DNA of 64,000 bases from contig JNVV01000018.1 of NCBI GenBank assembly GCA_000733355.1, forward strand, positions 554,947 to 618,946, in the 5' to 3' direction. How positions within the stretch are numbered: the stretch's first letter is position 1; every line of letters starts with the position of its first letter. This document shows, piece by piece, positions 1,998-64,000 of this stretch. This DNA is from Falciphora oryzae. Taxonomy: Eukaryota; Ascomycota; Sordariomycetes; Magnaporthales; Magnaporthaceae. The notes beneath the pieces were generated by a model. It saw nothing but the letters and a program-made list of their open reading frames with translations. It was not told the DNA's origin and searched no databases. The translations under genes and the position numbers were made by a program.

Positions 1998-3935
1998 CTA
2001 TTTGTGCCTGCAGGGCTTCCCGCCCTTGTGCGCAATGGGCGCGTAGAAGCTGAACTTGTCGGTCGGGTCGTACTTGTCCTTGAGCGCGGCCAGCTTCGCG
2101 ACGCGCGCCGCGTCCCCGTAGAACTGCCCCTCCTCCTCGTCGCCGTAGCCGTAGTTGACGTACGCGGCCGCCCTGCCGGCCCTCCCGCTTCCCGCCTGCA
2201 GCATGTCGCGCAGCCTGTTGCCGAGCTCCTTGCCCTTCGCCTCGACGTCGGTGCCGGGCGCGGGGCGGTACTGGATCAGCGGGGCGTTGAGCAGGCGGCG
2301 GTCGCGGTGGGCAAAGGCGGTCGTGGACGCGTCGACGGCCTGCAGCCCCTGGACCGGATAGCCCTCGAACATGAAGATGGAGCCGTGGAAGGGCGAGTCG
2401 GAGGGCCCGACGGCGGCGGCGTAGGTCGCGTAGGCGTCGGCCATGACGGACGGGTTGTACTCGTCCAGGTAGATAGGGAAGCGCGGGTTGGCCAGGCCGT
2501 CCTTCTGGCAGGGGGGCGACGATAGCGCCACGCCGGCCCAGCCCGAGACCTGCAGGTAGTCGCCCGTCTGCGGAATCGCGACCAGGGGCCCGATGTCGTG
2601 GAATGGCTTGGTGAACTCGGGGCTGACGACCTTGACGCCCTGCTGGATGATGTAGAAGATGATGATGGGCTAGAGATAGTGTAAGTCAAATTGACCCGAC
2701 ACGAGAGAAGATGGGTCAGGTCACGGAGAATAGCTTACGTTATTGGGGTCCAGCGACGCATCGTTGAGCCAGTACGACCAGTTGATCAGGTCCCTGGACT
2801 GGGTGCCGTTCTTGAGCAGGTGCTCGTTGGCGGCCCTGTAGACGGCCTCGACCTTGTCGCCGCTGAAGATGTGCGTCTCGATGGCCCAGTCGCGCGAGAT
2901 GACGTCGTAGATCTTGACGTCGACGGAAGTGACGATGCCGAAGTTGTGCCCCGCACCCTTGAGCGCGTAGAAGAGGTCCGTGTTCTGGCCCTTGTCGGCC
3001 GTCACGGCGCGGCCGTCGGCCAGCACCACGTCGAACGACAGGATGTTGTCGGCCACCAGGCCGTAGTAGCCCTGCAGCCAGCCGTGGCCGCCGCCGAGGG
3101 CGGGGCCCATCATGCTGACGCACTCGCAGGTGCCAGTCACTATTGGTTCGGTTGCGTGGTTAGCGAGGTCAGCCAACGGTCTCGACTCTCTCTGGCACAT
3201 CGGGTGGCCGCAGCTTCTGCTTTACCGAGCGGGCAGGGATGTGGTGCGTGGGGGTGTGTGCAGCAGCAACTACTGACCGGTTTGCTTATCCGCCGCCCAC
3301 AGCGCGTCGATGAGGTCCTTGGACCTGACACCGCCACCGACCTTGGCTGTGTTGCCATCTGCGGCAATCTCGACGCTGTTGAGCGACCTGATGTCGATCT
3401 CAATGCCGTGGTCCATCCTGCCCAGGGTCGTGAGGGTGCCGTGGGCCGTGTTGGTGGCCAGGAAGGGTAGCTGCTTCTCGTTTGCAAACTTGACCTGAAC
3501 CGCGCGCCGAAACCAAAAAAAAAAAAAAAAAAAAAAACATGTCAGATTTCGCATTTTTCGTATGACCAATAGCGCGGGATGCCTAGGCGAGAAAAGAAAT
3601 GAAAAAAAAAAGCAAAGAACCGATAAAGTGTCAGCAAAGGGAAGGTTTTGACGAACCGTAGCAGCAACATCCTGCTGGCTCCCGGGCACGACGACGGCGC
3701 TGAACTTGGGCGGGGACAGGTTGGACCACCGCGTAGTCCGGGCGACGAACTCGGTCGAGCCGGGGAAGAGGATCTGTGCTTCGGCAGACAGGCTGGCGCC
3801 CAGCTCCCCGATGTCGTCGCTCCGGGGGCAGAAGCCCGAGGAGCAGGCACTGCTGCGGGGGACGCTCAGGGACGCGACGGCGGTGGCCAGGACTGCCACG
3901 GCGCCAAGGGCTCCAGCGAAGCCGGGCGAACGCAT
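1998..3935 (-). CDS. Secreted FAD-linked oxidase, VAO/BBE-like (bicovalent flavin type)
   Basis: Four exons read on the minus strand: 3935-3657, 3494-3278, 3139-2739 and 2669-1998, giving 522 aa. The start at 3935 opens a good signal peptide (MRSPGFAGALGAVAVLATAV), so the enzyme is probably secreted; in-frame ATGs farther upstream would bury it. Residues ~60-280 form an FAD_binding_4 (PCMH-type) domain. His111 (NTAHG) sits where the 8-alpha-histidyl link is expected. Cys170 lies 11 residues before GGG, the spacing of the second, 6-S-cysteinyl link in berberine-bridge-type enzymes. The C-terminus (YVNYGYGD, then KDKYDPTDKFSF) is a BBE domain. Family members oxidise alkaloids, oligosaccharides or secondary-metabolite intermediates; the substrate cannot be read here. 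Intron 1 (162 bp) carries a 23-nt homopolymer. Length fits the family. Confidence 0.85.
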
Positions 3936-13117: not shown

Positions 13118-14680
13118 TTACTTCCGATCGGCCAGCCGCCACATCTTGTCGAACCGGTTTTCCGGGTCGTACCTCGCCTTGAGCTCCCGCAAACGCGCCG
13201 CGTTAGGCCCAAACGCCCCCTCGGCGCTGATTGGCTGGTCCAGGTAGTTCCCATACAGATACTGTGACTCCTCGCCGTTGCTGCCATTCGTCCCGTTCGC
13301 CTGATTGCGCTCCGGGAGGTACATCTTCTCTGAGATGAAATCGGCGAGCTCCTTCTTGAAGCGGCGCACCTCGGCGTCCTTGGACGCATCCGTCCAGTTC
13401 ATCACCAGCCCCACGTTGTAGTACCGCCCCCTGTTGGAGTGCGCCATGGCCGTGGCCGGGACCGAGCAGGCCTTGGCGAAGGGGAAGATCTCGAACCCGA
13501 GCACGGTGTTGCGCAGGTCCTGCGCCCCGCCCGACCCGGCCAGCTCGCCGTCCACGTACGCAAAGAACTTGTCGGCCGCCGCCACGAACGCCCCCGCGTC
13601 GATGGGCGCCGTCAGGTGCGCAACGCCGTGCTGCCACCGCGCCCCGTGCTCCATGAAGTCGTCGAACTGCCGGTTGACCTTCCGGTACGGCATCTCGGCT
13701 GCCGCGTTGAGCACTGGCCCTAACGCCAGCAGCGCCGCGAAAAAGCGCGCGCCCTCGGCCGCCGTGCCGTTGTGGAACACGTACATGGACACGGCCTTGA
13801 TGCGCTCTCCGTTCGGCGCAGGCGGCGCGTACCCTGGCGCCAGCATGATGGCCTGGTTGCCGTCCTCGATCTTGAGGTGCTCGTTGACGGCCCCGATGAC
13901 CTCGACCGCGCGTTCGAACGGGAACGAGAGGACGCCGCTCCAGACGTTACCTTGCGGGAAGACGCGGCTGGTGAAGCGGGTGGCGACGCCGAAACTGGTG
14001 CCGGCACCGCGCACGGCCCAGAACAGATCCTCATCGCCGCCCTCCTCGTCGGACGCCACCACGACGCGGCCGTCGGCGAGCACCATCTCGACCGAAACGA
14101 GGCAGTCTATGGTCAGGCCGGCACGGCCTGACAGCCACCCGAAGCCGCCGCCGAGGACCAGGCCGCCGACGCCCGTGTGCGCGACCGTGCCTCCCGGCGT
14201 CGCGAGGCCGTGCTCCCACGCCGCGTCGTCGACATCGGACCAGAGGCAGCCGCCCTCGAAGGTGATAGTCTGCGCCGCCGCGTCGACCGAGACGCCACGC
14301 ATGCGCCGCAGGTCGATCACGGCGCCCTCGGGCCCCATGGACGACGTGGACGAGGTCGCGTGCCCGCCGCCGCAGACGTTGAAGGGGATCGAGCTCGAGG
14401 TGAGCAGGGTCACCGCCTTGCTGACCTCCTCAGTTGTTCTAGGGAGGACCACCGCCCCCTGTTTGGCGCGGACAGGGTTTAATCAGCCGCAGCACAAGAT
14501 GTTGTCAAAGGGAGCACACCGGTCCCTATTGTATAACGGAAAAATGGTAAGACAAACCGCCCGCTTGACGCACACGGCGCTCCACCGCTTGATGACATCT
14601 TCGTAGCCGTCATCTCCCGGCAGGAGGACACCCCCAGGGAAGGCTTTCTTGAGTGACTCGAAACTCGCCGTAGTCGCCAT
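13118..14680 (-). CDS. FAD-linked oxidoreductase, VAO/BBE-like (mono-covalent type)
   Basis: Exons 14680-14558 and 14458-13118 with a 99-bp intron give 487 aa. Residues ~40-210 form an FAD_binding_4 domain: KRAGAVVLPRTTEEV, CGGGHATSS with the likely flavinylated His74, then TGVGGLVLGGGFGWLSG. Aligned on the GGG, the position of the second covalent Cys is Val133, so only a single His-FAD bond is expected. The C-terminus (YLYGNYLDQ, then ELKARYDPENRFDKMWRLA) is a BBE domain. No signal peptide is present, so it is probably cytosolic, unlike the oxidase at 1998-3935. Such enzymes are frequent in secondary metabolism, but no biosynthetic core gene is nearby. Length is normal for the family. Confidence 0.88.
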
Positions 14681-31638: not shown

Positions 31639-33456
31639 TGTGACGGCGGTTGTTCTTGGCACCTCGGCAGCAGGGGTTCTCGGGGGCAGGAGACACCTAA
31701 TACACGGAGCGGCCCGGCGGCGGTCCTAGCGAGCTGACGGCAGGAAAGGAGTGACTGCGGTAGCGCTGGATGACGGTAATCCTACATCACCGCGTCGTCC
31801 GCGCTCGCCGGGCCCCCGCGCTTTTATACCACCTTGGATATGGGGGAAAAAAATCTTGACGGGGATCCACCGGTCCATAGTCGATGCTCCGGCGCTGGCA
31901 AGTTCTGACACAAGTAATTTCAACGGTGACGACAGTCCTCGTCGATGGGGCTGCCGACCTTGTTTGGCGGCGGCGTCATGTCGCAATGCGAAATGCCGCT
32001 AGTTGCCCTGTCTCAACCACCCCCTCGGTTGGGGTTACCCTGGAAAAGTGATCTCAATCAGAAGGTGGCATCCGACACGGGGCCGTTGTGGGGTTCGCCT
32101 CCTCGCGAGCGAGATCGAGAGTGCGAATCGGTCTTCTTCCCGTGGGTATGTGTTGGTGTGCAAGAGGGACTTTTGGGGGAAAGGAAATGACTGCTGCGAT
32201 AAACTTAAGCGGATCCTGGTTTGCGTATAAAAGGCCCAGCGACGCTCCGGAATCGGCTCGGCGGATGGTCTTGTTGAAGCAGTTCGCGATATCGTGGTCG
32301 TCTCCATCAACGCGTGGAGTCCTGGCGGGTCATTCCGGCTGGCATTGCATCAGTCGCTCCCGGAGGCAACTGCCGAGGAACTTGCCCACCCAGGAGACAA
32401 TATCTGACCACGTGCGCGCAACAAGAGTTGAGCAGTTGGGGTGGTGGCCAGTGGACCAATGCGCCAACCAAAACCGTCAAATCTTCCTGGCTATGGCCGG
32501 ACGGGCGGGTGGTGAGGGTGCTCCTTGGCGTTAGTCCGACCAATCAGTCACAAGGAAGGTTTACAGCACCGATACTGGGAGAGGGCCGAGACCGACTTGG
32601 GGGACGGCGCAGTCTCAGGTACTCGAGAGCCCGACCTCAGCTCTTGATATAGCCTGATCTTCCAGTTCAGATAATCCAAAGCACTTGCATGGTTATCCTA
32701 GCCGGGAGCGGTTCTCGACAGGCTGTCATGACTACGAAATGGGTCAGGAAGAACGCCGTTTGGACCGTGAGGGTTGCATGTTTTAGCGACGGGTGTCATC
32801 GGGTCCTTGACCGAGCCAATGACAACGAGACCTTTCCCTGCAGTCAATATAAATACAGACTCGAGTCCTGTTATTTGTCCCGCCCGGTTGGGTGCTTGTC
32901 ACTTTGCCGGCTCGCTTGCGTCCTAGCCGGACCAGAAAACCGACGACAGCTTCTATTTTAATCCACCAGACGCGAGGAGGTTGCCCGTTATGGCTCGCCA
33001 TGCAAAAATGCGCTTCCAATCGCAATCCATCCTATTCCGCCTTGGTACGAGGCTGTGTACCTCGATCTGGGCATATCTGGGCCGATAAGCATCTGGGAAC
33101 AGCCAGACGGTCGCTTGACGGTCGACGCGCTTTAATTTACTGGGCACCAATACGCATCGAGGTAGATATTGACCCGTAAAGTGCTGGGCCCATTCACAAA
33201 GCTGGACATAGAAGCCCAAGCACTTGGATATTGTCTTGCCTGCGACCGGATTCCGATCCGTCCTACCCTGCAATGCGCCAGCCCTGGCCTGGACTGGGAT
33301 GCTAGATCGGTCCGCTCCCTGTACAACTGGCTATATCTAGATCTTTCTGCGCATCCTTTCCTCCTGAGTAGGCCTACTTGCTTCGTTCATCTTGTCCTCG
33401 CCGTCACCGGAGCCCTGAAACAGTGATATCGAGATCCTTCTCAACAACGCGGCAGG
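31639..33456. other. 1.8-kb intergenic region with orphan TATA-like sites
   Basis: No gene is supported. TATA-like motifs on the plus strand lie at 32225-32232 (TATAAAAG), 32847-32855 (ATATAAATA) and 33330-33336. The last is about 125 bp before the CBM1 gene start and is the best promoter candidate for it. Confidence 0.45.
31822..31828 (-). promoter_or_regulatory. TATA box of the FMN dehydrogenase gene
   Basis: TATAAAA reads on the minus strand about 185 bp upstream of the ATG at 31638, in GC-rich surroundings. Confidence 0.45.
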
Positions 33457-35005
33457 ATGCGCGCAACCTCGCATCTCCAGGCCTTGGCCGTGCTGGCCTC
33501 GGGGGTGTCAGCCCAGTGGCAGTCCACATGGGGACAGTGTGAGAAAGCCACCCCGTTCTCTCGCTAAGCTGCTAGGGCTTTCACCTAACTGACGGATATT
33601 TAGGTGGCGGTCAGGCCTACACTGGAATTGCTCGATGTCCCCCAGGCACGTTCTGTAACTATGGAAAGTAAGGACCCCGTCTGCCCTTGGAGCCACCTTG
33701 TGGAATTTCCCTGAAAAGATAGAAGCGCTCCTGACCGGCCTCGAAAATCCAACCAGCCCCTGGTACTCTCAGTGCATACCCCCCGAGCAGCCGCAGCCGC
33801 AGCCGGGCGTGCCCGACTCGCCCATCATCACCGAGACGGTCACGACCATCTTCACCATCGTTCCCGGCCCGGACCCGGTCCTGGTCACGACCTTCTACAG
33901 CTTTCTTACGCCCGGCCCCACGACGACCGCCAGGCAGAGCTACACCGTCATCGACGGTACCACCTGGATCATTGTCCCTGGCCACCGCAAGCGGACCCCC
34001 GCGACCGGGCAGCTGCTGGCGCGCGTCCCGGAGCCCACGGCCCCGGCGCACCTTTCTCCGGCGGCCGTTGCCGCGGAGGAGAAGAAGCGCGATGTGGATC
34101 GCGAGCCGGTCTACGATGCGCCGCTGGCCCCGGGGTTCGTCCGGGTTGTAGAGGCCGTCGAGAAGCGCGACGTCGACCGGCCGCCCGTGCCCGACTCTCC
34201 CCTTGCGGCTGGATTCGTTCGAACGGTGCCGGTCGCGAAGTCGGAAGTCGAGAGGCGGGACGTCGACCGCCCACCCGTGCCCGACGCGCCTCTCGCTCCC
34301 GGCTTCGCCAGGGCCGTGGAGGGTGGTGGCACGGCGGGCAAGAGTAAACGCGACGTCGATCGCGCACCGGTTTACGACGCGCCCCTCGCTCCCGGCTTCG
34401 TCCGGACCGCAGAGGTCGTTGAGAAGCGCGACGTTGACAGGCCGCCCGTGCCGGACTCTCCTCTTGCGGCGGGGTTTGTCCGAACGGCGCCGGCGGTGGC
34501 AGAGTTATCGGTTGAGAGGCGTGACGTCGGCCGCCCGCCCGTTTACGACGCACCGCTCGCGGCAGGGTTCGTCCGGGCGGCCCCTGATGTCGTCGAGAAG
34601 CGCGACGTGGACCGGCCGGCTGTGTACGACTCGCCCCTCGCGACTGACTTTGTCCGCACCGCACCCACGACAGTTAAAAAGCGTGATGTGGACCGTCCAG
34701 CCGTGTACGACTCTCCCCTCGAGGCCGGCTTCGTCCGCAAAGCGCCCAGCAAGGCGGAGGTCGGGAAGCGCGACGTGGACCGGCCGGCCGTCTACGACTC
34801 GCCACTGGATGCAAGCTTCGTCCGGACTGCTGCCCCGCTGATCGAGAAGCGCGACGTCGACCGCCCTCCTGTCTACGATGCTCCCCTTGCTGCGGGCTTT
34901 GTCCGGGAGGCGAAGCCGGGGAAGCGCGATGTCGACCGTCCGCCGGTTTACGACGCTCCCCTCGCGAGGGACTTTGAGCGGAAGGTGGGCCTGGTGCAGA
35001 GTTAA
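33457..35005 (+). CDS. Secreted CBM1 protein with eleven Kex2-bounded repeats (repeat-peptide precursor)
   Basis: Exons 33457-33538, 33604-33667 and 33757-35005 give 464 aa. Residues 1-19 are a signal peptide. Residues 20-57 are a complete family-1 cellulose-binding module, reassembled only by splicing: QWQSTWGQCGG, ARCPPGTFC and NPWYSQC, with four Cys and the Trp/Trp/Tyr cellulose-binding face. A Thr/Pro-rich linker (~58-158) contains TTARQSYTVIDGTTWI and an RKR site. Residues 159-464 are eleven tandem units of about 25-31 aa. Each opens with a dibasic pair (nine KR, two RR) followed by the near-invariant core DVDRPPVYDAPLAAGFVR and a variable spacer. Kex2-type proteases cut after KR and RR, so the repeats should be freed as about eleven related peptides, as in fungal KEP and dikaritin precursors. 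I know of no named family with this fusion. No UstY, tyrosinase or peptidase gene lies beside it. Confidence 0.87.
34085..35002 (+). repeat. Eleven tandem dibasic-bounded peptide repeats
   Basis: Eleven copies of a 75-93-bp coding unit. The 18-residue core is strongly conserved. The centre is PVYD in eight copies and PVPD in copies 2, 3 and 5. The spacers between cores vary in length and sequence. Many differences inside the core are synonymous (for example GAC/GAT, GTC/GTG, CGC/CGG). Confidence 0.95.
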
Positions 35006-55632: not shown

Positions 55633-58600
55633 AGGCTATCCTCGGCCTTTAACTTTCTCCTTTTTCCCTAATGCAACGACAAGTTTTCGTGGACTCGCAA
55701 AGGCGTTAACCGTCTTTTTCCCTCGCCTGGTAGGCGCTGGTTTCCAATAAAACCCTTGAAAAAGGATAACCAATTTGGCGATTTCAGGTGTCCCTTTTTT
55801 TATTGCTTGGCTCCACGTCCTGGAGCTCGCGGATCTTTCAGTTCCTTTTGTTCCGGGCCCTTTGGAAGGCTCGTATTTTCGTAGGTGCGCCGCGAAGGTG
55901 TTTTTCGGGCTCCCAAATGTTATACTTTGCCGGCCAATCCATCCATTTAATTAGGTAGTACTTTTTGCCTCGGATCCGTCCCTTATCTCGTACTTTTTCG
56001 ACCTCCCATTCCTTTTGGTCGTCCTTATACTTTGGTATAGGTAGCGGCACTTCGTTTCTTTGTTTTTTTAGCAGTATACCGCTCGAGGTTCTGCACGGGA
56101 ATAACGTTGTAAAAACGGCGGTAATGTTTAGGAAATGCCAAACGGTAGGCCTATTAGCCTATGCGTTCGGTAATCCGGAAAGGACCGATCTATTTAGGTG
56201 CTAACTTTTTATTTTTTAAACGCAGGTTTTTCGTAAACATTTTAACCAAATCTCCAATTGCGAACTGCATAGGGATGTGGTTTTTGTTATAGTATTTAGC
56301 TAACCGTTTTTATGCTTGTAGCAACGTTTTTTTTAAGCTTTTTGCGCAATGCATAAAGTCGTTCGATGCGGTTTTTTGCTGCGGGTACCCTCCCTTTAGG
56401 GATATTATCCGCGATATTAATCCGTATCTCGCAATCCGATCCGTATAGGAAATAGAACGGCGAGTGCTTTGTAATAAAGTTCTTGCTGTTGTTATAAGCG
56501 TAAGCTACTAACGGTAGCAGTAATGCCTAGGAATTTTCCGAACCGGCGCAATAATTGCGGAAGTAATCTTCGATAACGCGGTTAAAAACTTCCGTTTGCC
56601 CGTCCGTTTAAAAATGGTAAGCGGTCGATATACGTTTTTTAATGATCTAGTGTTTGCACACTTTTTCCCAAAAGCTACTGGTAATGCGGCTATCGCAATC
56701 GCTAACGATGCTTTTGGGGGTACCGAATACGCATTCGATACGCTCGAAAAACAGCTTTGCGAACTGTCCTGCACTTGTGTTAGCTCGTATGGGGATAAGG
56801 ACTACGTATTTGGTTAATCGGCACACAACGACGAAAATCGCGTTAAAAAGCTGACCACCCGCCGTCCTGCTTTTAGGTAAGCTGGTTACCCAGTCCAAAG
56901 AAATCTCTTTTATAAGCTGCCCGTTTTTTGGCGGTAGTAGGGGTTTAAGTTTGCCGTAAAGCTTGTAACGATAAATCGCCTTCCTTTGGCACTAAAAGCA
57001 CGATGCCATATATGCCGTAACATCCCCTTTAACTCCATCCCACCAAAAAAAGCACTGGATAAAATTTAAAGTTTTGGCCACGCCTTAATAACCGGCTCCC
57101 GGGAAATCGTAAAACTATTTTAAGATTTCAGTCCTTAAAGCCTCGTTTGCAGGGACATAAACCTAATTTCCCCAGAAAATCAACTCGTTACCGTTAATTA
57201 GGTGGAAATACGATGCTCCTTACTGCCGAGTTGTTATCGCAATATTTCCGTGCAGTGCGGTGTATTTCGCGTTAGGTACTACCAGGCGGGGCTTTTTAAC
57301 TACTGTCAGCCTTTTAAACAAATTTATACTCGCCGGATCCCGCTTTTGTACGTCCCTAATCCATTTCCTTAGCGGCGTTGGGATTTCCTCCGGGGAGTCC
57401 GTAACTACGCTGCTTTCAAACCAATCCAAAGCAGTGCGTACCTCCTAACGAGTAACAGATTGCACCTGTAAGGCATGGATAACCTTAAAGGCGTCTGGAT
57501 CGTTAGCTAACGTAAGCTGTGCCAAACGTACGTTATCCCGCTCGCTTCGCCGGTTAAAGGTAAAACCTTTAAAGGATCGCTCGTTAGGTGCGCTTTTTGC
57601 GCTTATTAGCTAGGGAGGCTTATTAAGCGACGCTCCCTCGGCAATATCCTTTGCGTACTGCTTATAACTAAACACGTTTTGTTCCCGACCCATTTTATTT
57701 AATAACGTTGGCAAAAGTTTTTTAATAAAAATTTCTTATCCTTTTTTTGCGACCGTTTATATAGTCCGGCCGGCGAAACGGAGCGTCGGTGTAACAAGGG
57801 GTCAAAGACGGCTTGGAGAAAGAATCTCTATATTGCAGATAATCTTTTTATGGGCTTAAGAGATGCTTGAGGAGGGAGGAATTTTTCGTGAAGGACATAG
57901 GAGATGGCAGGGTTTATATAGACCCTTTGTGATCCGTGCGAAGTATCGAGTACATGATTCACACTGCCTTCCGACCTTCACCGCTTGGCTTTGGGGCCGC
58001 TGACCGCTTATGCGGGTTTTCGAACCTCCGTAAAGCCGACTCGTGATGCCGACTAGTTAGGTCCACAGGGTCTTCCGTGTGACAGTCGGCTAGGTTTAAA
58101 AACCCTAGCCGGTATTTAATTTCGAAATCGTAAGGTGCTAACTGCAATAGCTAACGTGCCTATCGTCCGTTCAAACGCTCCTGCTTTATAAAAGCTTTAA
58201 GGTTTTTATAATCCGAAAACACCTCCGTAGCTTACGCCCCCTTAAGTAAATATCGCTAATGGCGAAAACTTCCTACTATTGCGAAAAGTTCCTTATCGTA
58301 TACAGGATACCGAGTTTCGGCACCTTTAAACTTTTGGGACCAATAAACTATAGGGTGCTACTGGCTATCGTGCTTCTGCGATAAGGTACCTGCTATAGCA
58401 AAATCGGAAGCGTCCGTTTCAACCCGTAATGGTAAAGTCGGGTTGTAATGCCGCAGCATTGGTGCGGTCGTAAACGCGTTAATTAGGTCTTCGAATGCCT
58501 ACTATTGGGGTTCCTGCCAATAATAGCCTATTTGGCCTAGCTTGCGTCCGTTCTTCATTTTTTGCAATAAATCGTACAAAGGCTTCGCCATGCGGGAAAA

Positions 58601-59114
58601 GCCGTGGATAAACCGTCGATAAAAGTTGCAAAATCCCACAAAAACCTGGATGTTTTTGTACGTACGAAGTGGGTGGTCGATCCATTCGCGGACGACCTAA
58701 ACACGCGCAGGATCTATTTTAAACCTTTCGGTATTAACGATAAAACCTAAAAACTTAAGTTTTTGCTGGAAAAAGGTGCACTTTTTGGGATTGGCATAAA
58801 GCTTAAAGCTACGAAATCGATTTAAAACCAGCTTTAAGTGGTACTGGTGCTTTTTTTTACTACCGGAGTAAATAAGGATATCGTCTAAATAAACGATAAC
58901 GAAATCGTTTATTAAGCCCCGTAAGGCTTTATTAATATAGGTTTGGAACGATGCCGGGGCGTTGGTAAATCCGAACGGTAGCACGAGGTATTCGTAATGC
59001 CCGTACTTGGTACAGAACGCGGTTTTCCATTCGTCCCCCTTTTTAATGCGAAATCGGTAATACGTATTAACGAGGTCGATTTTAAACAAGCATTTGGCAC
59101 CGTTTAAACGGTTA

Positions 59115-60975
59115 ACGTGGTTTATAAGCGAGTCGCGCACATAAGCGAGTCGCGCATTTTCCAATGCGACGCGTGTCTCCCACTTCCAACCTCAATTGCT
59201 CAACAACCACAAATGGCATCGACATTAAAAGAAGCTCGGATTGCCCTTGCTTTACGGGCAATCCAATCTAATGCACAATTAAATATGCGAAAAGCAGCCA
59301 AAATCTACGATATTCCTCAATCCACATTGCGCGACCGACGCGCCGGCCGACCTGCTCGACGCGACAGCATGCCCAAATCACGGAAATTAACGGAATCCGA
59401 AAAGGAGGCGCTTGTCAAATACATCCTCAAGCTGGATTCTCGCGCATTCCCTCCCCGGCGTTCTGGTGTTAAAAATATGGCCAACCGATTGCTCGCCGAA
59501 CGCGACGCGGACGCCGTCGGCAAATGCTGGGTCGCGAACTTCGTCAAACGCCGCGCAAAGCTCGGCACGCGTTGGATTCGAAAGTACGACTACCAAAGGG
59601 CCAAATGCGAAGATCCCAAGCTCGTTTCTGCGTGGTTCGACCTTGTGCGGAATACTGTCGACAAATATGGCATCCAACCTAACGACATTTACAACTTCGA
59701 CGAAACCGGCTTCCTTATGGGCATGATCGCGGCCGTTATGGTCATCACAACATCTAAAGGGCGAAGCAAAGCAAAGCTGGTCCAGCCTGGCAACCGGGAA
59801 TGGGCTACAGTCATCCAAAGGGTCAATTATTGCGGTTAGGCGGTCCCTCCTTTCATCATCGTCAAAAGGCAATACCACCTAGCCAATTGGTACTCGGAAA
59901 CCGACCTTTTACGCAACTAGGTCATCGCAACAAACGCCAACGGGTGGACTACGAACGAGCTCGGCCTGGAATAGATCCGGCATTTTGATAAACACATTGC
60001 AGTTCGTTCCACGGGGTCCTATCGTTTGTTAGTGCTAAACGGCCACGAAAGCCACTACTCGACGGATTTCGAGCTTTACTGCCAAAAACACAACATTATT
60101 ACGCTTTGCATACTTCCGCATTCATCTCACTTCCTTTAGCCGCTTAACGTCGGGTGCTTCGGCCCAATGAAGCGGGCGTACGGTCAACAAATCGAAAACC
60201 TGATGAGGTTACACGTTAGCCACGTAACCAAGGTCGAATTCCTTTCGGCGTTTAAAGCGGCATTTTTTAACTCCATAACCGAAAAAAACATCCGAGGAGG
60301 TTTCTGAGGGGCTAGCTTTGCTCCTTTCAATCCGGATTCGGTTCTGGAAAAGCTGGATGTGAGGCTACGGACTCCAACGCCCCCGAAAACGCCCCTAAAC
60401 GACCCCGAACCTTGGACCTCCAAAACGCCCAAAACAGCCAGGGAAGCAACTTCGCAATTTGAACATATCAAAATTCGAATTTCCAATCACCAGGGCAGCT
60501 TTCCAACTCCTATTCATACGGTTATGGACCAAATTGCAAAAGGGGCGAAAGCGATAATGCATAAGGTGGCCCTTCTCCGAGCCGAGGTGACCACGCTTAG
60601 AAAGGCGAACAAGGCACTAAGCAAACGCCGGAAGGCCAAAAAAACACGTGTCCGATTTGGAGGGTCACTTACTATCGACGAAGTACGAAATGTTTTAAAC
60701 CAGCAGGAGCTAAATGGACAGCTACAGCAAGAAATGCGCGACTATGGGGGTTAGGAAAGGAGGGCGACAACGACTCGTCGGCGATATAGCACCTGCGGCA
60801 AGACCAAACACAATGCGCGCACCTGTTAAAAAAAAGTAGAAATGTCCGATGTATATAGTTCAAAATAGTTTGAATGGATTGCTGGCGTTGTTGGGTTAGC
60901 ATGCGCGTCGATTAACCAAAGGTCGGGTGTGGGTGCGCGACTCGCTTATATGCGCGACTCGCTTATGAACCACGT
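59115..60975 (+). mobile_element. Pogo/Fot1-type DNA transposon nested in the Gypsy RT
   Basis: 1861 bp, flanked by TA (59113-59114 and 60976-60977). The terminal inverted repeats are about 45 bp; each begins ACGTGGTT and holds two copies of the AAGCGAGTCGCGC-type motif. The insertion lies between the codons for Leu and Asn in the RT segment RKML/NRLNGAKC; removing it with one TA joins the Gypsy frame exactly, which proves the order of insertion. Confidence 0.93.
59213..60754 (+). pseudogene. Inactivated pogo/Fot1 transposase (HTH_Tnp_Tc5 + DDE_1)
   Basis: A single collinear frame of 513 codons with five in-frame stops and no frameshift: TAG at 59837, 59918, 59972 and 60137, and TGA at 60305. 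N-terminal residues (~15-50, MRKAAKIYDIPQSTLRDR) are the helix-turn-helix; a CENP-B-type HTH follows (SGVKNMANRLLAERDADAVG). The DDE domain begins at YNFDETGFLMG with the first Asp. The second catalytic Asp position reads NGHESH, Asn replacing Asp. The tail is basic and coiled (RKANKALSKRRKAKK). Every lesion is explained by a C-to-T or G-to-A change (Trp, Gln or Arg codons to stop; Asp to Asn). Confidence 0.92.
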
Positions 60976-61949
60976 TAAGCATCTTCCTAATTAACGGAAG
61001 CGGTGCTCTATTTTTAATGGTAATATCGTTAAATTCTCGATAGTTAACGCACAATCGTAACGTGCCGTTTTTTTTCGGAACGAAAATGACAAGGGCTTTT
61101 GCTAATAACTATAACTCGCGGATAATGCTTTGTGCGAAGGCATCGGTGAGGTACTCCTAAAATGCCGTCGATTCAGCTGGAAACAGGTGGTAAATCTGCT
61201 TTTACGGGGGCTTTTTGCCTGGGAGCAAATTAATGGCATAATCGCCGTAGCCATGCTTTGAAAGCATTTTCCTTTTGCGGACGTCGAATACGTCGAAATG
61301 GCTTATCCGTAAATTTGCAGGGACGTTTTTCAAATTTAGCGGTTCGTTTAAACGGTTTTCGAAAAGGTCGTCCTCCCCGGTGCTGCCAATAAAAGGGTTA
61401 AAGCGAAAGGAATAAATAAACACGCGATTTTTAATTTAAAAGCTTTTTCGGAAATGGTATGCGGATAGCTAATAAATACGAGGACGTTGGTTAAAACACT
61501 AGGTGCTTTTAGCCGGGTGGAGGTCCATAGCTAGTTCCTACATTAGTGGCATACCTATAAAGATAGGGGCGTTTGCTAAATTTCGTTCGATAGCGAAAAA
61601 TAGCCGGATAATTTTTACCGGAATACTATTTTAGTTACGAAAGCTTAATCGTAAATAGTAAATACCATAGGTTTTAACGCTTTAATCGCTTACGGCGGCG
61701 AAAGTGAGGGATTAGTAATCGTATTTAAAACGGTTGCATGGCTTATAGCCTAAAAACTTGCAAAAGGTAATGGAAACGGTATTAACTTTGGCGGACGTAT
61801 TTAAACCGATTTCGACTTTAACTTTCAGGCCGCTGTTAGAAAAGCCAACGGTCCCTTTAGTAACGAACGCAGGGGCTATGCGTATCTGGTCGTTACGGAA
61901 CGTCGGTGCGGGGATGACCGGGTTCCCTTTTAGTTTTTTTTAGCGTTTT

Positions 61950-62900
61950 TCGCTCTGCTTTTTTCCACCTTCCTCCTTTCGGCGTTTTAAGGAATTAATT
62001 TTAGCTTTTTCCTTCTAGGGGGATTCGCCCTTTTTGGTCGAAGGTTTGGTAGCGGAAAAGGGGTTTTTGAAATTTTTCGCCATATGGTTAGGCTTGCCGC
62101 ACTTAAGGCATACGCTTTCGTCCTGGCGTCGTTAGCGTTCGGCGTTTAAAAGCGTCAAGCGTCCGTTGCCTTTGCTATTGCCGTTGCGTTGGTTACGCCC
62201 CTTTTATTTGCTTCGAAACTTGTGCTTCCCGTCTTTGTTCAATTCCTTTTGGTCCTTTTTATAGGAGGACTTATGGGAATTTTTTTTTTCGTCGTACGGG
62301 GCGCGAGCACCCGTACTTAAGGTATCCCAAAGGACTTAGGCTATAGCGACGAGGTTTTCCAAAATTTCCGCTTTATAATGCATTCCGCGGGTAATTTAAA
62401 CTTTTAAGGTAGGGATTAAACGGATAACGTAGCTGTTAATATTTGCTATTTGTCCTGCTTTACTGCACATACGTCGGTACCGTATTGCGAAAACACTAGG
62501 GTCCTCGTTATTTTTTTGCATAAGTTGCTGTAAATCGTTAGTAGCCCTTAAAAGTAAAAAATTTCCTCGCAATGTGGTATTGCGGAGCCATCGCATAAAT
62601 TTGCGCTAATATAGGCCCAATACCGGGCTGGCTTTACGCGAACCGTTATAGGCGGAATTAAAGTCGCTATCAAAGGTTCTGATAGCGGCTGCGATACGTA
62701 ATTTAGCCGTAATAAAGCCGTTAAAGTTGGTTTCGAACGTAAGGTTAAATTTGCTTTCCTAATAGTCGAAATCCTGCATTAAATTTGGAAGCTTTAATTT
62801 GGGCATTTTCCATAAAATTTTGTAACTGCCTTTATTTTTATCGTACGAAGGAAAAATGTCGTTTTTTTCGTTATCGTCCCTTATTAAGGTATGGTGCGAC
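61950..62900 (-). pseudogene. Gypsy gag remnant with zinc knuckle
   Basis: The minus strand at 62596-62396 encodes a retrotransposon-gag-like segment (NNEDPSVFAIRYRRMCSKAG). At ~62120-62069 lies a CCHC-type knuckle, CLKCGKPNHMAKNF, in which the last Cys is now Phe. The remaining frame is interrupted by stops. Confidence 0.75.
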
Positions 62901-63359
62901 GGTACCCGGGGTATCGATTAGTTGCCGGGTTTTTTTAACGGGCGGTTAACCTTTTGGCCGTGCTGCTTTAAGGTTAAACTTTGGGAACGAGCTGGAATTT
63001 AGGGCTTATGGTTAGGGCGATTTGGATCGTTCGAATCGTTTAAAAGGCTAAAGGCCTCGCGAATTGCCTTCCGTTCCACAAATGCTTTTTGGAACTATGG
63101 CAGGATTTTGGTAGGGATGCAGTCTCGCGTTACGTAGTAGGCGAGCTGCGAACGAGTGTAGGATACAACGCTATGGATGCTAAAGTTAGGGTATCTACGA
63201 AGGTTGTTAGGGGTAGGTTGCTCGCGTTCAGGGGGAAAGGTGGATATTCCCGTTCCTGGATCCTCGTTCTGGCCTAAGTCGTTAATGTTAACGAAATCGT
63301 CGGAGTCCGATATGGTAACTAATAAATGCTAAAGGTTTAAGCAAAGGAAGCTATCGAGT

Positions 63360-63884
63360 TGTAACAAGCCTCCGCCCTATTATAGCTAGCTATAGTAATG
63401 TTAGGCCTGGAAAAGGAAGGTTTTCGCAAGGAGGTTTTAAAGGTTTAGCAGCTTAATAATCGTATTCGTTAAAACTTAACAAATTGTATTGATCGTAAAA
63501 CAGAAATGATAGCTTGCCTTTCGGACCTCCTTTACAGGGGGTCTTTCGGGCCCTCCTTATGCTTTAACCCTCCGGCCGTCCTTTAGCTGTCGTTGGCGCT
63601 GCCTCCTCCTTTGTGGCGTCCGTCGGGGTTTGCCTTTCGGTTATTGTCGGCACGCTGCCTCCTCCGCGGCGTCCGTTGGAGCCGGATGTGTTTCGTCCCT
63701 TTTAGGGTTCCGGGCCGGGCTGATTTGCGGGGGCTGATCGGCGCGCGTGTCGCAAAGTTAAACTTTCCTGATCCGCATATCCGTTAGGGCTTGCGCCCCT
63801 CCGGCTACCACCCGGAGGCCTCCCTTGTGGTCACCGGTAGCGTCCCCTGCGGCTGCTGGCCATGGTTTTGTGTGGGGTGTTACA
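63360..63884 (-). repeat. 5' LTR of the Gypsy element
   Basis: 525 bp, same ends as the left LTR. It differs from the left copy by dozens of transitions, nearly all C-to-T or G-to-A in this copy (for example CCAGCTACAG to CTAGCTATAG), and no indel was noticed. Confidence 0.93.
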
Positions 63885-64000
63885 TCCGATATCGGCCGCC
63901 ATGCAACTTTTTATGGCGCACCCACACAAATGCACATGGGCAGCGGTGCAAAGGTGTGAAGGTGCACAGGTGCAAAGGTAAATTTTTTTTTTTTTTTTTT
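63885..64000. other. Flank after the Gypsy element, ending in a T run
   Basis: It holds the second TCCGA, then short imperfect repeats of GGTGCAAAGGTG (63942-63980) and an 18-nt T run that reaches the window edge. No gene is seen. Confidence 0.6.

Follow-up and report, generated by a model that had tools for sequence, protein, structure and literature searches.

Gene structure and genomic neighbourhood

The window (i.e., the whole stretch of DNA analysed, 64,000 nucleotides in length) is the final 64 kb of contig C18 (618,946 bases), in an assembly of 50.2 Mb. At positions 33457-35005 of its forward strand lies a gene with three exons, whose in-frame coding sequence of 1395 bases is translated into 464 aa. 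From one end to the other, this fusion protein presents a signal-like peptide, a CBM1 module, a linker, a spacer and an array of eleven units, each opened by a pair of basic residues. A preliminary description had proposed a spliced gene joining a CBM1 to a repeat-peptide precursor at this place, and its coordinates, strand, introns and coding sequence were verified in the sequence. The features are presented in Table 1.

Table 1. Features of the fusion gene, in positions of the window.
Feature	Positions	Strand	Description
Exon 1	33457..33538	+	Start codon and signal-like peptide MRATSHLQALAVLASGVSA; QWQSTWGQ opens the CBM1
Intron 1	33539..33603	+	65 bp, GT-AG, phase 1, within the codon of the first CBM1 Cys
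Exon 2	33604..33667	+	Middle of the CBM1, with Cys 2 and Cys 3
Intron 2	33668..33756	+	89 bp, GT-AG, phase 2, within the Asn codon preceding PWYSQC
Exon 3	33757..35005	+	PWYSQC (end of the CBM1), linker, RKR, spacer, 11-unit array, stop
CBM1, W25 to C55	33529..33775	+	Two introns inside; PF00734 match
Linker, Thr/Pro-rich	33776..33994	+	Ends in RKR
RKR	33986..33994	+	Predicted Kex2 site severing the head; residues 126-128
Spacer, head to array	33995..34090	+	32 residues; ends in KKR, residues 158-160
Array, 11 units	34088..35002	+	Majority [KR]R-DVDRPPV[YP]D[AS]PLAAGFVR plus variable spacer
Starts (D1) of units 1-6	34091, 34169, 34259, 34352, 34430, 34523	+	
Starts (D1) of units 7-11	34604, 34685, 34772, 34853, 34928	+	

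Exons 1 and 2 might have been misassigned in the gene model, in which case the CBM1 and the array would belong to two genes, or the first exons would go unused. We regard this as extremely improbable. The open frame that contains exon 3 spans 448 aa (33659-35005), and in it PWYSQC and the linker run on uninterrupted into the array. Met is found only at residue 1 among the 464 aa, the array having no in-frame ATG of its own, and exon 1 read without splicing runs into a stop codon (TAA) at 33565-33567. Support for both introns comes from the open reading frame and from a paralogue on contig C14, which keeps them at identical positions and phases. Since exon 3 alone links the last CBM1 Cys to the array, and given the single Met, the fusion is, as far as the sequence goes, no gene-model artefact.

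The N-terminus of the protein is hydrophobic and ends in VSA, followed by QW; it is signal-like as judged by eye, and beyond residue 30 the highest 19-residue Kyte-Doolittle mean is 1.21. A TATA-like sequence, ATATAAATA, is present at 32847-32855, about 600 bases 5' of the start codon. It is the sole one in the window, and 4 of 100 shuffled windows contain one; given its position, the 5' leader would have to be long, or an upstream exon would have to lie outside the model.

Upstream of the fusion gene lies an RCC1-repeat gene, and downstream an MFS transporter gene (minus strand) followed by a short-chain dehydrogenase. A FAD-binding oxidoreductase with a BBE domain is found at 13118-14482, about 19 kb upstream. 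When 39 hand-picked neighbouring open frames of at least 128 aa were scanned against Pfam, a set from which many overlapping frames were left out and whose scope does not extend to small exons, no fungal-RiPP peptide-modifying family was recognised, most of these frames having no match at E 0.01. Positions 56000-64000 have a GC content of 44-47%, against 49-65% elsewhere in the window, and an open reading frame at 59108-59839 carries Psq and Tc5-transposase DNA-binding domains. This part is likely a transposon-rich, gene-poor contig end.

The CBM1 head and its relatives

The CBM1 matches PF00734 with 31.7 bits (Pfam cut-off 20.6), and its four Cys, at residues 28, 39, 45 and 55, are complete, in keeping with the four-Cys module of the preliminary description. 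Searching the PDB yielded 10 sequences at E ≤0.001, including 4bmf and 1cbh, with names of cellulases, a cellobiose dehydrogenase and a glucuronoyl esterase. The module aligns along its length with solved cellulase CBM1s and the aromatic residues are present; its Trp, Trp and Tyr presumably occupy the cellulose-binding-face positions of the Cel7A CBM1. The head is predicted to bind crystalline cellulose. Among the genome CBM1 matches listed, 17 of 21 reach across positions 3-29 of the profile, or further, in a single frame, intronless; the other four are partial, and split genes are absent from the list, so 21 is a lower bound.

A search with the full-length protein (7997 candidates scored) returned three proteins at E ≤0.01, all with a CBM1 and none with an array, and a search with residues 15-132 also returned three, at E ≤0.1 among 84 candidates. 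The best match to residues 15-132 is a hypothetical protein of Thozetella sp. PMI_491 (P0004; E 2.8e-10), which presents 45% identity over 100 alignment columns of CBM1 and linker. This homologous head is followed, where the fusion protein has its array, by a DUF7908-like tail, whose 26.5 bits are just below the cut-off of 27. The two linkers align with a score of 76 versus 34.9 ± 6.5 for shuffles, none of 1000 being as high. Homology of the stretch following RKR with the start of the P0004 DUF7908 was considered and rejected, the score being matched by 187 of 1000 shuffles. Cladorrhinum is also among the matches to residues 15-132, and the protein matches in Panaeolus, Phytophthora, Discula and Serendipita rest on the CBM1. 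The sole DUF7908 match of the source genome, on contig C20 (G000:C20; L044 856-2232), is in an open reading frame where an extended Ser/Thr-rich region is present and the poly-basic site RRR/EKRRR comes shortly before the DUF7908, a layout like that of the AKR before the P0004 tail.

When the source genome was searched with the linker, two further places were found, C14:452152 and C80:17761. The former is the paralogue mentioned above (G000:C14:452152; L071 1100-1713), which appears to encode 155 aa with the CBM1 and linker of the fusion gene and an additional Gly/Asn-rich stretch N-terminal to the CBM1, and to have neither tail nor dibasic array. Its linker scores 78 against the fusion linker, versus 37.3 ± 6.9 (0 of 1000 shuffles as high). 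Aligned with the P0004 linker, that of the C14 paralogue scores 52 versus 34.1 ± 6.3 (15 of 1000 shuffles), which is weaker than either against the fusion linker. The latter place is a decayed partial copy of the linker, 78% identical at the DNA level over 88 aligned bases (E 7.8e-16), and its pieces are not all in the same frame; an RKR-like stretch comes next and no repeat array (L070 1400-1700; L073 about 3739-3920).

Given the C14 paralogue is tail-less and P0004 has a DUF7908-like tail, the head is, judging from these relatives, a separate module that carries different tails. The array probably joined the 3' end of an already existing CBM1-plus-linker gene, and the gain of a Kex2-repeat tail by such a gene is the simplest history. 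The linker also contains GVPDSPI, which resembles PVPDSPL of the core with a score equalled in 3 of 300 shuffles. A derivation of the array from this VPDSPI motif is possible but weak, because the C14 paralogue has no such motif; if it were true, a small CBM1 protein would have become a peptide factory. Judging by the tail-less paralogue and the differently tailed relative together, a 3' peptide array can apparently be acquired by a small secreted CBM1 protein, which would be a concrete route to the birth of new peptide families.

The repeat array

All eleven units are opened by a dibasic, just as the preliminary description had it, KR in nine cases and RR in two. The core it proposed, DVDRPPVYDAPLAAGFVR, is indeed the majority sequence, yet it is present exactly in only one of the eleven units, and the additional basic site RKR at residues 126-128 had been overlooked. 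Core variants include P for Y8 in three units and G for D3 in one, while D1, V2, R4, V7, D9, P11, L12, F16 and R18 are invariant after the dibasic. The start-to-start spacing of the units is 75-93 nt. R18 is the same in 11 of 11 units, via four different codons.

Among the eleven copies, KR plus the 18-aa core (20 codons) presents a pN of 0.123 and a pS of 0.642, versus 0.555 and 0.662 for the control, i.e., the first five residues of the spacer alone in a gapless alignment; these are raw proportions among copies with a shared history. Split by first, second and third codon position, the copies differ by 0.147, 0.115 and 0.528 in the core, versus 0.455, 0.625 and 0.684 in the spacer. These values indicate the array is kept by selection at the protein level, acting on KR and the 18 residues, not on the spacers. 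The conserved block has the dibasic as its 5' edge and R18 as its end. Since conservation stops sharply at R18, this suggests the active part is DVDR...FV(R), with the remaining tail trimmed or tolerated.

The six frames of the window were scanned for stop-to-stop frames in which one tripeptide comes after a dibasic three or more times, and, K/R runs aside, the array described here was the only one. Dibasic-repeat scans found no further array beyond simple runs in loci L001-L045, and no further array in loci L069-L073. A genome search gave no second place for the array (four matches, all inside the fusion gene), and a protein database search yielded nothing related at E ≤1 among the 7999 candidates sharing most words that were scored. 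NCBIfam matches were far below cut-off and confined to the array, with none to the head. The Cin1 repeat (PF20738) was considered and rejected as a family for the array, with 17.1 bits for the whole protein and 22.9 for units 6-11 alone against a cut-off of 27; the name Cin1 is absent among the three PDB matches at E ≤10.

A 160-nt stretch of units 1-2 matches units 4-5 at 80% (window 34073-34493), hinting that the array grew partly via duplicated blocks of two or three units. An AlphaFold2 model of the exon-3 product, computed with no alignment, has a mean pLDDT of 34.8 and an array without secondary structure, which is consistent with a disordered array but no proof of it.

Proposed processing and alternative explanations

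Kex2-processed repeat proteins (KEPs) are delimited in PMC6339444 by at least four KR/RR fragments, at least three of them similar, and a motif covering at least 15%. A signal peptide and the lack of a transmembrane segment also belong to the KEP definition, for which the fusion protein has a signal-like N-terminus. It has 13 KR/RR fragments (residues 20-464), 11 of which are similar, and KR plus core gives 47% coverage. The genome presents one over-cut-off P_proprotein match, at C1:621802, in an open reading frame where the end of a subtilase domain, a P domain, a transmembrane stretch and an acidic tail were recognised by eye, i.e., a kexin gene. Together with conservation confined to KR and the core, this bears out the KEP layout of the preliminary description. 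The fusion gene is thus probably a KEP gene with a CBM1 head.

Kexin works in the late Golgi. In the proposed mechanism, the 464-aa chain would enter the ER, where the CBM1 would fold with two disulfides and the array would remain unfolded. Kexin in the late Golgi would then cleave after RKR128, KKR160 and the ten internal KR/RR sites, and a Kex1-type carboxypeptidase would remove the terminal K/R. Cleaving at KR/RR in silico gives a head of 109 aa, the spacer of 32 aa and, prior to K/R trimming, eleven peptides that are 25-31 aa long. The secreted products would be one cellulose-binding head of 106-109 aa and, after trimming, about eleven peptides, linear, unmodified and roughly 23-29 aa long, with the common core DVDR..V.D.PL...F.R. 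Because of the RKR site and the location of kexin in the late Golgi, head and peptides should separate before export, which argues for their co-release. By analogy, a role as secreted signals or as effector-like molecules is the most likely one for the peptides, which would be produced alongside a wall-binding protein while the fungus grows on plant material.

The preliminary description had proposed that either the precursor or its N-terminal part docks on wall material. For the whole precursor this is weakened because RKR should cut the head off first, while docking by the head fragment alone is plausible. A cellulose-tethered depot, in which the CBM1 sets the eleven-peptide array on the plant wall and local wall proteases free the peptides, would require incomplete RKR cleavage, or a head that retains spacer and peptides through other contacts; we consider it quite improbable. 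It is also unlikely, albeit worth some weight, that the protein stays mostly uncut in the wall, the CBM1 anchoring a disordered Pro-rich repeat tail to cellulose as an adhesive or as a mimic of plant proline-rich proteins, with dibasics that are incidental or partly cut. PPVY motifs are found in plant proline-rich proteins, head and tail are on a single chain, and the tail is without predicted structure (at low confidence). Extensin_1 (PF02095) matches with E 9.7e-17 and 61.7 bits, which is below the Pfam cut-off of 105, and the second half of the array alone gives 48.9 bits. Matches below cut-off in low-complexity sequence are often due to chance, yet none of four scrambled controls (three core-permuted, one fully shuffled) matched at E ≤0.1. 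The match therefore depends on residue order, which keeps the wall-protein or mimicry explanation alive. Against it, dibasics are found in 11 of 11 units, at the very 5' edge of conservation, RKR and KKR part the head from the array, and the genome encodes a kexin.

The KEP layout is shared by precursors of dikaritin-type RiPPs (ustiloxin, phomopsin, asperipin), whose cores are cyclised via Tyr by UstYa-family enzymes, in this case encoded elsewhere, and by alpha-type sexual pheromones or pheromone-like autocrine signals. The preliminary description had entertained both, and neither holds up well. Eight of the eleven cores have Tyr, and searching the genome gave matches to UstYa (13, on other contigs) and to tyrosinase (33). 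However, Pro replaces Tyr in the other three cores, none of the tyrosinase matches is within the window, the nearer of the two on contig C18 is about 530 kb off, and none of the 13 UstYa matches is on C18 (six-frame, exon by exon). According to PMC7329392, DUF3328 (UstYa) is near 22% of KEPs, at an average distance of 3.09 genes when present. Since contig C18 has no UstYa match, a dikaritin RiPP is highly unlikely. Elsewhere in this genome, four UstYa matches, possibly of two genes, are found within about 3 kb of contig C65 (G000:C65 188069-191078; L002, L005), which is a candidate RiPP locus.

The single genomic place of the array would also suit an alpha-pheromone, to which we nonetheless give hardly any credence. 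Sordariomycete alpha-pheromones have two conserved Cys (PMC6339444), whereas the repeats here have neither Cys nor Trp, and all eleven units open with DV rather than with the STE13 signature XA/XP. A separate pheromone gene was searched for in the genome with the pattern WCxxxGxxCW, yielding 17 matches versus 3 in the reversed control. This pattern is the alpha-pheromone motif. Two of those 17 places were inspected, and neither is precursor-like.

Comparison with known systems

KEPs occur widely, with functions that are for the most part unknown (PMC9769878). Like the KEPs described in PMC6339444 and PMC7329392, the fusion protein combines a putative secretion signal with near-identical tandem peptides flanked by KR/RR, in more than three repeats and over more than 15% of its length. 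Unlike those of PMC6339444, it has an N-terminal CBM1, and its repeats differ from the conserved core motifs named there; the main text of that paper makes no mention of CBM, cellulose, carbohydrate, chitin or hydrophobin. CBM1 is likewise absent from the main text of PMC10942635. No related paper on DVDRP was found in the literature, and none on DUF7908.

By description, the nearest known layout is that of Ustilago maydis Rsp1 (260 aa), in which putative Kex2 motifs separate eleven tandem repeats that are imperfect and 18 or 21 aa long; unlike in the fusion protein, a CBM1 is unmentioned in the available text of PMC4617103. The same source describes U. maydis Hum3, in which 17 repeats, 14 of them separated by putative Kex2 motifs, are fused to a hydrophobin, and Rep1, a Kex2-repeat array whose peptides form surface-active fibrils. 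The repeats of these two proteins are longer (31-36 and 34-55 aa), and the hydrophobin of Hum3 lies after the repeats, whereas the CBM1 lies at the N-terminus here. A Kex2-released peptide is also combined with a carbohydrate-related domain in the GH128 protein 365456 of Coprinopsis cinerea (PMC9769878), as in the fusion protein, yet that domain is an enzyme and C-terminal; its peptide was detected in cultures and tissues.

Table 2 of PMC7329392 lists a KEP type with Hydrophobin_2 (G-7) and another, S-6 (Neocallimastix, Piromyces), which also has a carbohydrate-binding Pfam domain, Chitin_bind_1. The latter belongs to a chitin-binding family and not to CBM1, and its genera are listed there under Chytridiomycota. 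Hence, the statement of the preliminary description that no KEP with a carbohydrate-binding head is known has to be qualified, given type S-6. As for CBM1, within the literature matches listed for Kex2 or kexin with cellulose or carbohydrate binding, a scope that does not extend to supplementary KEP tables, no CBM1-bearing KEP was found. Domain-fused KEPs are thus already known, with hydrophobin, Chitin_bind_1 and GH128, and the CBM1 head is, as far as these sources go, the new element. A head of known binding specificity hints, in a testable manner, at where such a KEP precursor acts.
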